Shown here: positions 14,320 through 18,184 of the stretch, one piece after another | Layout: each line of letters opens with the position of its first letter | How positions within the stretch are numbered: the first letter of the stretch is position 1 | NCBI GenBank assembly: GCA_001275005.1 | Contig: JWZX01003301.1 | Location: 1 to 45,170 of the forward strand | Direction: 5' to 3' | Length of the DNA: 45,170 nucleotides | Origin: Chrysochromulina tobinii | Taxonomy: Eukaryota > Haptophyta > Prymnesiales > Chrysochromulinaceae | The notes under the pieces: model-generated | Seen by the model: the letters and a program-made list of their open reading frames with translations, nothing else | What the model was told of the DNA's origin: nothing | Database searches by the model: none | Program-made: the position numbers and the translations under genes

Positions 14320-15282
14320 TCACAGCCTTCGAAACCATTGCATCAAGAACGGCCGGCTTCGGATGTCCAGGAACTCCTGGCCACATCTCGTTGCCTGGGC
14401 TGCCTGCGGCGTCGCCGCTGGATGCGTGGCACTCGGGTGGTGGCGGCAGCCGAAGGTGGTGCTCTCGCGAAGGTGTGCCCCGAAGGCGCCCTCGTCGCTC
14501 GAGAACTGCGCCTCGAGCGCAAACGCGCCGTCGCGGAGGAGCTCATGGGCAAGATCGCATCGGACGGGCGCGCTCACGTGCAGGAAGATGCCGCCAGTAG
14601 CCAGCAGCGCGCGCACACGCGCGCCCAGCAATCGCACATTCTCCGTGCGGTAGGCAAGGTCGGAGCCCAATACGATGTCCACAGGCTCTCCGACGATGTA
14701 GGGTTGATAGGGTTGCACTTGCGTCTTGGGCGTCGTCTTGGGCGTCGCGGGCCCCGCCGCCGCCGCCGCCGCCGCCGCCGCCCAGGACGACGCCCATGGG
14801 AGCCGGACTACCTCAACCGAACAGCCGGCTGCCGCGCACGCATCGGCGTTGGCGAGGACGTTGGCGCGCAGATTGGCCAGCGTCAGAGCGTTCAGATCGG
14901 TGAGGACCACGCGCCGAGAGCGCGCGTAGACGGCCGCGGCAAGCCCCGGAAGGCCACAGCCCGCGCCGAGCTCCACGACGCAAGCACCCTCAAGCACGGC
15001 GCGCACGCGCTCGTCGACTGCGATCCAGCGAGCGAGCACGAGAGCAGCGCCCCAGAGCTGGCAGCCAGTCTGGTCGAGCTCGATCGCATCGCGGGAGAGG
15101 GTGTTGAGCGGATCATGTGGACCCTCGCGGAGAACCAGCGCGGGCGCACCGCCATCGCCGTCGAGCAGCTGCAGCACATGCAAGTTCTCGTCCTCGTGCT
15201 TGTGCAAGCTTTCCTGCAAGCTGTCCTGCATCTCCGTGTTCGCGCGCAGATGCGTCGCGCCGCGCGCGGTGGGGTGCCACAT
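14320..15282 (-). CDS. METTL21/Methyltransf_16-type lysine methyltransferase
   Basis: A seven-beta-strand SAM-dependent methyltransferase of the family that methylates lysines of non-histone proteins (METTL21, METTL22, METTL23, FAM86 relatives). Signs in order: GCQLWGAALVLARWI (the Trp-Gly start typical of the family), VVELGAGCGLPGLAAAVYAR (SAM motif I), VVLTDLNALTLANLRANV (motif II Asp), and VDIVLGSDLAYRTENVRLL, where the family usually shows a D-x-x-Y motif, seen here as SDLAY. An Ala-rich insertion lies between motif II and the D-x-x-Y block. The frame is open to 15351 but with a GTG there; ATGs are 15282 and 15231. Its 5' end overlaps the MsrB-ADF-H frame by 170 bases on the same strand, so the true start or the neighbour's end is uncertain. 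The substrate is unknown. Confidence 0.8.
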   Translation of the reverse strand: MWHPTARGATHLRANTEMQDSLQESLHKHEDENLHVLQLLDGDGGAPALVLREGPHDPLNTLSRDAIELDQTGCQLWGAALVLARWIAVDERVRAVLEGACVVELGAGCGLPGLAAAVYARSRRVVLTDLNALTLANLRANVLANADACAAAGCSVEVVRLPWASSWAAAAAAAAAGPATPKTTPKTQVQPYQPYIVGEPVDIVLGSDLAYRTENVRLLGARVRALLATGGIFLHVSAPVRCDLAHELLRDGAFALEAQFSSDEGAFGAHLRESTTFGCRHHPSATHPAATPQAAQATRCGQEFLDIRSRPFLMQWFRRL

Positions 15283-16597
15283 GGGTAGCGAAAGGTGGGG
15301 AGAGGACGGCGGTGGCAGAAAGCACGGGAGGCAACGAGCGGCGGCGGCCACCGGGCGCGATGGCCCACGACGGCAGGTCCATCACCAGCGCCTCCGTCGG
15401 GGGGGTGGGTGTGGAGCTGTCCCGTGGAGGGCTCATCATTGGCGCGACCGTGCCCTGGACCTGTGCCCTCGCTGCCATCTTGAACGCATTGCCGCCCGAG
15501 GGCGCCAAGAAAGGTGCATCTGCCTTTGAATCTGCCTTGGAGGCCACCGCCGCCCGCGCTGCCGGCTGCGCGCGCGGCGCGCGCGCCGCCGCCGCCGCCC
15601 GTTCGGAATCAGGGGAGCGATGTGAACGCGTCGCCCTCTCCGCCACCGCGCGCGCAGCGCTCTCACTCCTCACCACCTCGACGCTCGACGCCGCCTTGCA
15701 CACGTCAAGGAGCACCGAATTCAAGTGGGCAGGAAAGAGCTCATCCGCCGCTGTGAGCGTCGGCAGCATGCCGATGGTGCCGACAAAGAACTTCTCGAGG
15801 TGCGGCGCATGCATCGCTGCGCGCCCGCGCTTCACGCCCGCGGTCCTCTCACCCACATAGCAGAAGAAGATGTGCCGCGGACGCTCGTCCACGCGCAAGG
15901 GCAGCACGCCATAGTTGATGGCGTCCTCGAGGAGCGCGGCGCGCAGGCCGTCAAAGCCGTCGGAGCCGCGCGCGATCGGCACGATCTGGGTCTTCGAGCC
16001 CTCCGCGTACGTGCACACGCACCAGCCGCTCGCCAGCGCGCGCGTCTCCGCCCATGCCGCTGCAAGCTCCGGGTCACTCAGATCGAGGTCGGAGCGCGGC
16101 CGAACGTCGGCGAGCCGGCCGTTGGGCGCGGGCACGTGCGCCGCAAGCTGCCGCTCCACCGCCGTCGTGTCGACCGTCGACTCGCCGACCGCGAGCAGCT
16201 CGGCGGGCGGGGCCGATTTGATGAACTTGATGCTGCGAGAGTTGACGCAGTGGCGCTGGTCGCTCTCGGTGTGATGCTCGCCCGAGAAAAGATGGCCCAG
16301 GTGGCCGTCGCACTGCGCGCACACAATCTCCACGCGCTGATCGCCGTGTGAAAAGTCCGGCTGCACGCGCAGGGAGCCGACGTAGCAGCGATCAAAGGAT
16401 GGCCATCCGCAGCCGCTCTTGTACTTGGCTGCGGCCGAGAACAGCGGGTTCTTGCAGCCGCGGCAGACAAAGTAGCCCTCAGTGGGGTAAAGGTCGTTGT
16501 ACTCGCCCGATCGCGCGGGCTCGGTCGCCTTCTCGCGAAGCACCCGGTACTCATCGGGCGTGAGGGTGCGGCGCCAGTCGAAGGCCGCGGTCATCAT
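15113..16597 (-). CDS. Methionine-R-sulfoxide reductase B fused to an ADF-H/coactosin domain
   Basis: One frame encodes two modules. Residues ~5-130 are MsrB, which reduces methionine-R-sulfoxide: WRRTLTPDEYRVLREKATE, two zinc Cys pairs (VCRGC and VCAQC), SGCGWPSF with a probable resolving Cys63, and QRHCVNSRSIKF with catalytic Cys117. Residues ~170-300 match coactosin-type ADF-H domains: WCVCTYAEGSKTQIVPIARG, then GLRAALLEDAINYGVLPLRV, HIFFCYVGERTAGVKRGRAA and HAPHLEKFFVGTIGMLP, with the basic VGE...KRxR actin-contact segment. The tail to residue 494 is Ala/Pro/Arg-rich and its last part overlaps the methyltransferase gene, so the stop at 15113 may not be the real one; an intron in the tail is possible. 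The frame begins at a TTG (16621); the ATG pair at 16597 fits MsrB. Actin is the likely substrate by inference. Confidence 0.82.
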   Translation of the reverse strand: MMTAAFDWRRTLTPDEYRVLREKATEPARSGEYNDLYPTEGYFVCRGCKNPLFSAAAKYKSGCGWPSFDRCYVGSLRVQPDFSHGDQRVEIVCAQCDGHLGHLFSGEHHTESDQRHCVNSRSIKFIKSAPPAELLAVGESTVDTTAVERQLAAHVPAPNGRLADVRPRSDLDLSDPELAAAWAETRALASGWCVCTYAEGSKTQIVPIARGSDGFDGLRAALLEDAINYGVLPLRVDERPRHIFFCYVGERTAGVKRGRAAMHAPHLEKFFVGTIGMLPTLTAADELFPAHLNSVLLDVCKAASSVEVVRSESAARAVAERATRSHRSPDSERAAAAARAPRAQPAARAAVASKADSKADAPFLAPSGGNAFKMAARAQVQGTVAPMMSPPRDSSTPTPPTEALVMDLPSWAIAPGGRRRSLPPVLSATAVLSPPFATHVAPHRARRDASAREHGDAGQLAGKLAQARGRELACAAAARRRWRCARAGSPRGST

Positions 16598-17011: not shown

Positions 17012-18067
17012 TCACGACCCTACCCCCTCGAGCTCGGTGCATGTCGTCAGAAGCTGGTGGGCCAGAGCGAGCGGCTGAGGCATAAGAAGCTCCCCGTCGA
17101 TGGCGGGAGGACGTGCCGCGGCGGCCCGGAGCGCCTCGCGCACCTCAGCGAGCTCAACCCAGCGCGCACTCTCAAGCTCGCTCGTGTCGATGATGAGCGC
17201 CTCCGTGTGGGCGATCGCGACGGCGCCGAGCATGAGCTGTGGGGACGGCCCATTGGGCCACGGCTGGCTCGAGTGATAGATGACATCGCCCACGATCACG
17301 CCGGACTCTTCGCGCACCTCGCGACGCACCCCTTCCTCTAGGGTCTCTCCCGGGTCGAGGAAACCGGCGAGGCAGCTGAACCGTCCCTTGGGCCACAAAG
17401 CTTGACGGCCAACGAGGCAGCGCGTCCCGTCGGCCGAGAGCACCGCGGAGATCACGACAGGGTCCGTCCGCGGGAAGTGCTGGGTGCCGCACGAAGGGCA
17501 CAGCCGCTTCCAGCCTCCCTTTTTCGGTTCCGACCTCGACCCGCACGCCCCGCAGAACGTGTGCGAGCGGTGCCAATGCAGCACGTTCCGCGCCTGCCCG
17601 ACCATAGCGGCCTCGGCAGAGCTCGCTCGCCCCACAATGTCGCGCAGGCCAACGAATCGGCTTACGCCATGCACGGCGCGGGCAACTCCGTCAGGGTCTT
17701 GGATTGATGCCGCAAAGCACATGGTGTCGCTCGCCGTTTTCGCATACCTCTCGTTGAGGAAGGAGGGTGGCATGGCGTGCGGCTTGCGCCGACCAAGAAG
17801 AATCATTTCGTCCACGCCAATCTCACGCGCCTGCGCTGCCGATGCGTATGCGAGACCCCCGGCGGAATTCACCGCCACTGCGTTCTTCTTCAGGTCGAGC
17901 AGTATCACTGCCGACGACTCGCGCTCTGCAGCGGCCAGCCACAGAGCGTCTTCCAGCTTTGAATCTAGAGGTCGCACCAGATGGGAACCCGCATAGCAAG
18001 GCTCTGGACGACGCTTGGTGCACGCAGCGATGACGGACGAGCGCAGTCGCTCGGCAGCCGACTTCAT
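17012..18067 (-). CDS. NADH pyrophosphatase, NudC/NUDT12-type Nudix hydrolase
   Basis: A 351-residue enzyme expected to cleave NADH and related dinucleotide caps to NMNH and AMP. Domain order is as in NudC and NUDT12: a variable N-terminal half with LGRRKPHAM; a four-Cys zinc ribbon (FCGACG and LCPSCG) followed by HFPRTDPVVISAV; then the Nudix box GFLDPGETLEEGVRREVREE ending in SG. The specificity motif is SQPWPNGPSPQLMLG, where the family usually has SQPWPFPxSLM; here Phe is replaced and one residue appears inserted, so substrate choice may differ. The ATG at 18067 (MKSAAERL) is preferred; an in-frame codon at 18118 is 17 residues upstream. No C-terminal peroxisomal signal is visible. It is head-to-head with an unknown gene 117 bp away. 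Confidence 0.88.
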   Translation of the reverse strand: MKSAAERLRSSVIAACTKRRPEPCYAGSHLVRPLDSKLEDALWLAAAERESSAVILLDLKKNAVAVNSAGGLAYASAAQAREIGVDEMILLGRRKPHAMPPSFLNERYAKTASDTMCFAASIQDPDGVARAVHGVSRFVGLRDIVGRASSAEAAMVGQARNVLHWHRSHTFCGACGSRSEPKKGGWKRLCPSCGTQHFPRTDPVVISAVLSADGTRCLVGRQALWPKGRFSCLAGFLDPGETLEEGVRREVREESGVIVGDVIYHSSQPWPNGPSPQLMLGAVAIAHTEALIIDTSELESARWVELAEVREALRAAAARPPAIDGELLMPQPLALAHQLLTTCTELEGVGS

Positions 18068-18184
18068 GTGCTCAGAGAGAGAGAGCGCGCCTTTGCTAGG
18101 GGTCCACGAGGGGCACACAAAAGCCTCCTAGGGGCGTTTTGATTGTCGCGTGAACACGAGTCAAGACAACACCGCCACCCGAGG

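Follow-up and report, generated by a model that had tools for sequence, protein, structure and literature searches.

The locus described here raises the question of whether a methionine sulfoxide reductase and an actin-binding-type domain, found in one open reading frame of a haptophyte alga, make up a natural fusion enzyme, and what such an enzyme would do. The frame lies on the minus strand (15113..16597), as do all its features given below, within a 45,170-nucleotide stretch of Chrysochromulina tobinii DNA that we call the window (contig JWZX01003301.1 of GenBank assembly GCA_001275005.1; contig C2142 of the assembly searched here, 53 Mb in 2,253 contigs). The genome was published from 454 and Illumina reads, and its authors inferred a haploid alga (PMC4580454). 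MICAL is reported to oxidise Met44 and Met47 of filamentous actin (F-actin), and MsrB/SelR to reverse this on globular actin (G-actin; PMC9982024). Judged from the proteins compared, MsrB-ADF-H is a real, conserved fusion, and we lean towards the view that it is an enzyme, probably of haptophyte-type algae, in which an active MsrB would be held on the actin cytoskeleton by the ADF-H domain and would repair actin or actin-bound proteins.

Read from the ATG at 16597, residues 12-126 of the frame form an MsrB (SelR) domain (16220..16564; PF01641, 1.8e-39, 134.7 bits against a curated cut-off of 24.9), and a PDB sequence search with the window protein returned 21 MsrB entries, the best at 3.6e-31. 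MsrB enzymes carry a catalytic Cys in the motif R-[HY]-C-x-N-S together with zinc-binding CxxC pairs, and both are present in the window protein and its alignment with relatives: Cys117 in QRHCVNS (16247..16249) occupies the catalytic position and is kept in all ten rows of the alignment, while the four zinc Cys (16310..16465) are Cys45 (16463-16465), Cys48 (16454-16456), Cys93 (16319-16321) and Cys96 (16310-16312). Cys63 in SGCGWPSF (16409..16411), at what we take to be the position of the resolving Cys of 2-Cys MsrBs, is kept in each of the nine rows that reach it. The description in an earlier note on this DNA of a complete MsrB, with two zinc Cys pairs and catalytic Cys117, thus holds, and this half of the protein carries the residues needed for reduction of methionine-R-sulfoxide, an activity that it would be expected to have.

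A connector (residues 127-163, 16109..16219) of low identity, with predicted confidence (pLDDT) below 50 at residues 163-168, leads to an ADF-H domain of the drebrin/Abp1/coactosin-like kind (residues 164-303, 15689..16108). Over the 45 pairs of the ten-row alignment, mean pairwise identity was 71% in MsrB, 43% in the connector (128-163) and 61% in ADF-H. The predicted structure has the ADF-H fold, and a fold search with it placed drebrin (Z 18.0) and drebrin-like protein (17.2) highest, although only about 1-2 Z above coactosin and the cofilins, the low rows being near-ties. In the PDB sequence search the second half matched drebrin alone (0.0017), and sequence comparison likewise favoured the drebrin/Abp1 subclass. 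The domain called coactosin-like in the earlier note is therefore an ADF-H domain as claimed, whereas its nearest class appears to be drebrin/Abp1, with coactosin second and a small margin in fold. ADF-H domains of drebrin and coactosin type bind filaments. Where the long helix begins, presumably the site at which ADF-H proteins bind actin, lies the basic block K256-R257-G258-R259 (15821..15832), of which R257, G258 and R259 are invariant in all ten rows and K256 is kept in at least 90%; the conserved basic residues suggest an ADF-H of the actin-binding kind.

Three protein searches, one of which was limited to scoring the 7,992 candidates with the most words in common, yielded 13 different relatives: the NCBI model of the window gene itself (P0004), two close proteins (P0001, identical to the window across the matched part, and P0002) and ten distant ones (P0003, P0005-P0013), whose aligned identity to the window is 54-70% and which, we infer, come from haptophytes. 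MsrB followed by a full ADF-H, the order sought in relatives, is present in eleven other database proteins (P0001-P0003 and P0005-P0012; P0007 starts inside MsrB), so that absence from every relative, which the earlier note had named as fatal to its claim, did not occur, and its report of both domains in one frame stands. P0013, which was left out of the conservation alignments, stops inside ADF-H at the same spot where the P0004 model skips, and by eye the break looks like an intron in its species. In the other nine distant relatives the ADF-H slices are 52-73% identical to the window, and the proteins end soon after them, 6 residues past the slice in eight and 13 in P0007. The P0004 model, which passes from mid-ADF-H straight to a downstream methyltransferase, was discarded as a candidate for the main product, since the half of ADF-H that it skips is conserved in relatives; this skipping may explain why the fusion went unnoticed.

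By title or abstract start, no report of an MsrB/ADF-H protein or of a haptophyte MICAL was found in the literature searched, which was mostly non-subscription and without preprints; the earlier note, too, knew of no described natural fusion of the two. One literature match on "cofilin domain" was discarded, the term there meaning a stretch of filament. Both halves belong to known families, and it is their union and its conservation that appear new. Of the pattern matches from two scans of viral contigs, 32 and 52 in number, not one was confirmed, and no viral spread was found; in prokaryote genomes 40 pattern matches likewise gave no confirmed fusion. Nor did a search with the window ADF-H find a second copy of the fusion in the genome, returning itself and one 31% identical match on contig C332 (L013:1363-2661, +), the nearest other ADF-H of the genome, which also has proline-rich sequence after it.

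In the mechanism that we favour, the drebrin/coactosin-like ADF-H would anchor MsrB to the actin cytoskeleton by way of a flexible stretch some 40 residues long, keeping the reductase where oxidised subunits arise and leave and so raising local repair; MsrB would reduce methionine-R-sulfoxide in actin itself or in actin-bound proteins, and this repair would favour reassembly after oxidative disassembly. The opposing activity also has candidates in this genome, where nine matches to the MICAL Rossmann domain (PF25413) exceed the cut-off (contigs C986, C2029, C1686, C142, C807, C1919, C2010, C1692 and C493). Both of the MICAL-type frames compared match PDB MICALs and are predicted to be monooxygenases. 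On contig C142 a 1,156-codon open frame (L050:2323-5790, -) contains both a tropomodulin/leiomodin-like repeat domain and a MICAL-type monooxygenase, so that a candidate oxidiser and, in MsrB-ADF-H, a candidate reverser both stand beside actin-binding-type modules. The N-terminal 489 residues of L049 gave no PDB sequence match at 0.01. Met44 and Met47 are called conserved in all actin isoforms (PMC9982024); in this assembly they are unreadable because contig C737 ends within the conventional actin gene; the true actin C-terminus was recognised there by eye from the DNA. A query with a stretch of actin sequence gave 11 matches, the best of them, 53% identical, being read as an actin-related protein. 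It is tentatively conceivable, at odds somewhat below even, that haptophytes run a complete actin methionine redox switch with actin-binding modules in cis on both arms, MICAL-type oxidisers (one with a tropomodulin/leiomodin-type repeat) on one side and the MsrB-ADF-H reverser on the other.

Several observations weigh against an actin-tethered repair enzyme. The fusion is seen here at the level of genomic DNA and database proteins. PF00241 matches the window protein (residues 190-273, 0.0028) with 17.8 bits, under the cut-off of 22.4; among the 13 relatives it is over the cut-off in six (P0006, P0008-P0012), under it in five (P0001 and four others, P0002, P0003, P0005 and P0007) and absent from two (P0004, P0013). 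Many relatives have N-terminal extensions, of possible targeting role, ahead of MsrB. The genome holds 11 further MsrB matches in a profile search of the contigs, and these enzymes could perform any actin repair. On the oxidising side, none of the 19 CH-domain matches of the genome lies on the nine MICAL-type contigs, these counts being lower bounds; introns could also hide exons. The filament binding described above is also in tension with reports that MsrB/SelR acts on G-actin while MICAL acts on F-actin (PMC9982024), so that the G-actin preference of MsrB fits a filament tether only indirectly. Finally, some ADF-H domains bind partners other than actin, as in PDB 5y1z, where the ADF-H of drebrin is bound to ZMYND8. 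The tether to actin proposed in the earlier note is partly supported.

One may also consider other explanations. An artefactual origin of the fusion, from GC-rich DNA, read-through or assembly, is scarcely credible, for although long frames arise commonly by chance in this DNA, eleven further database proteins repeat the domain order, and this recurrence rules out chance or read-through as its source. A protein whose ADF-H does not bind actin, serving as a module for another partner while the enzyme acts as a general MsrB, would fit the ZMYND8 complex of drebrin, the weak Pfam match in the C. tobinii-like proteins and a predicted structure that is least sure around the basic motif (pLDDT 66); the invariance in ten rows of the basic R-G-R and of other ADF-H residues nevertheless makes this improbable. 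Somewhat less improbable, though still unlikely, is a protein that does sit on actin but serves to repair sulfoxides of neighbouring proteins (e.g. Arp2/3 subunits), or sulfoxides produced by general oxidants instead of MICAL. Photosynthesis in an alga yields oxidants, which we count in favour of this explanation, and Arp-like genes are present in the genome. In addition, MICAL2 has been reported to oxidise Met293 of Arp3B (PMC8193582). Nothing in the analysis separates this explanation from the one that we favour.

A further alternative, compatible with actin tethering, is that the working protein of C. tobinii has a third part. Beyond ADF-H the frame continues as an Ala/Pro-rich extension (15353..15688) with weak, uneven coding signal, which occurs only in the C. 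tobinii-like P0001 and P0002 and is absent from nine distant relatives. It is followed by an open reading frame (14320..15351, -) with a Methyltransf_16 domain at 14788-15075 (PF10294, 2.9e-16, 60.1 bits against a cut-off of 21; nearest PDB sequence EEF2KMT, 1.2e-9), which could be a third domain or a separate gene. The codon-bias test was trained on 2,014 codons, partly the MsrB and ADF-H of this gene, and its values are therefore independent for linker and methyltransferase only; strong support for the MsrB/ADF-H frame extends to about 15720 and weak support to about 15360, with the top score falling in another frame at 15660 and 15600, while the methyltransferase frame is favoured from 15300 downwards. 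Past about residue 414 the 494-aa product proposed earlier was rejected: its last 80 or so codons overlap the methyltransferase in another frame and fail on codon bias, so that the product was over-extended and a possible third domain missed.

P0001 (757 aa; 41 member sequences from 16 contigs) and P0002 (784 aa) run as single frames across MsrB, ADF-H and methyltransferase. The two share 97% identity in MsrB, in ADF-H and in the core of the methyltransferase; the linker, with in-frame indels, is 90% identical (94 of 104 aligned residues) and the part preceding the core 84%. The NCBI model P0004 also links MsrB to the methyltransferase, by a different route. Against this, P0001, which otherwise equals the window in both frames, switches frame at 15353-15354, a one-base difference that breaks the frame of the window at the linker-methyltransferase junction, a region that the assembly holds once only. 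The linker has weak coding signal, the methyltransferase is absent from the nine distant relatives, and P0002 has a Met at the junction and later Mets that are possible starts of a separate gene. Moreover, a profile search found 72 Methyltransf_16 matches genome-wide, in itself a marked number for one methyltransferase family, which makes such a neighbour unremarkable and likely by chance. We regard a protein of MsrB, ADF-H and METTL21/EEF2KMT-like methyltransferase as having not quite an even chance; such an enzyme would link the repair of methionine with the methylation of proteins at the cytoskeleton. Since the nine distant relatives end 6 or 13 residues after ADF-H, the older unit is probably MsrB-ADF-H.

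Among known systems, animal MsrB1 and Drosophila SelR belong to the same enzyme family and are reported to reverse MICAL oxidation of actin, yet the review (PMC9982024) describes them as broadly localised and names no fused actin-binding domain, whereas the algal protein has ADF-H in the chain. The MICAL [F-actin]-monooxygenases, the proposed opposite arm, resemble the fusion in combining a redox domain with actin-associated modules within a single chain, but they oxidise where the algal fusion would reduce, and the two have no common fold. To our knowledge drebrin and coactosin, unlike the algal fusion, are without a reductase domain. The EEF2KMT/METTL21 methyltransferases are the family matched by the possible third domain; in the nine distant relatives the fusion lacks this domain. 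Other Msr fusions, namely MsrA-MsrB (from PDB names) and GST-MSRA in Emiliania huxleyi, the latter from a paper on algal selenoproteomes (PMC7539508), join redox or detoxification enzymes, whereas the algal MsrB joins an actin-binding-type domain.

Some of the other MsrB loci of the genome have features of their own. In L014 (C1725:29157-29498, -) a TGA stands exactly at the catalytic position (RH-TGA-VNS), and the protein is probably a selenoprotein; Rfam found no selenocysteine insertion sequence (SECIS) near it, only a single sub-threshold match to another Rfam family. In L003:121-1887 (+; C1900) MsrB lies behind a long proline-rich stretch that by eye resembles formin FH1, in a protein beginning MGTCC, which resembles an acylation signal, also by eye. 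L017:860-2434 (+; C2068) is a frame with a diverged MsrB and then an apparent MsrA, the latter recognised by eye. Upstream of the fusion, the neighbour at 17012-18118 (-) of the window is a NUDIX hydrolase of NADH-pyrophosphatase type with a zinc ribbon.

A reductase fixed by evolution to an actin-binding-type domain offers a direct and testable answer, namely localisation, and the fusion could also be put to use as a tool for repairing oxidised actin locally. A 2012 survey (PMC3305314) detected MICAL class proteins in none of the non-animal genomes that it covered, among which the text consulted does not mention haptophytes. The presence of MICAL-type domains in this alga makes it possible to test outside animals how old the switch is, and if haptophytes do run such a switch, the control of actin by MICAL and MsrB would either long predate animals or have come together on more than one occasion.
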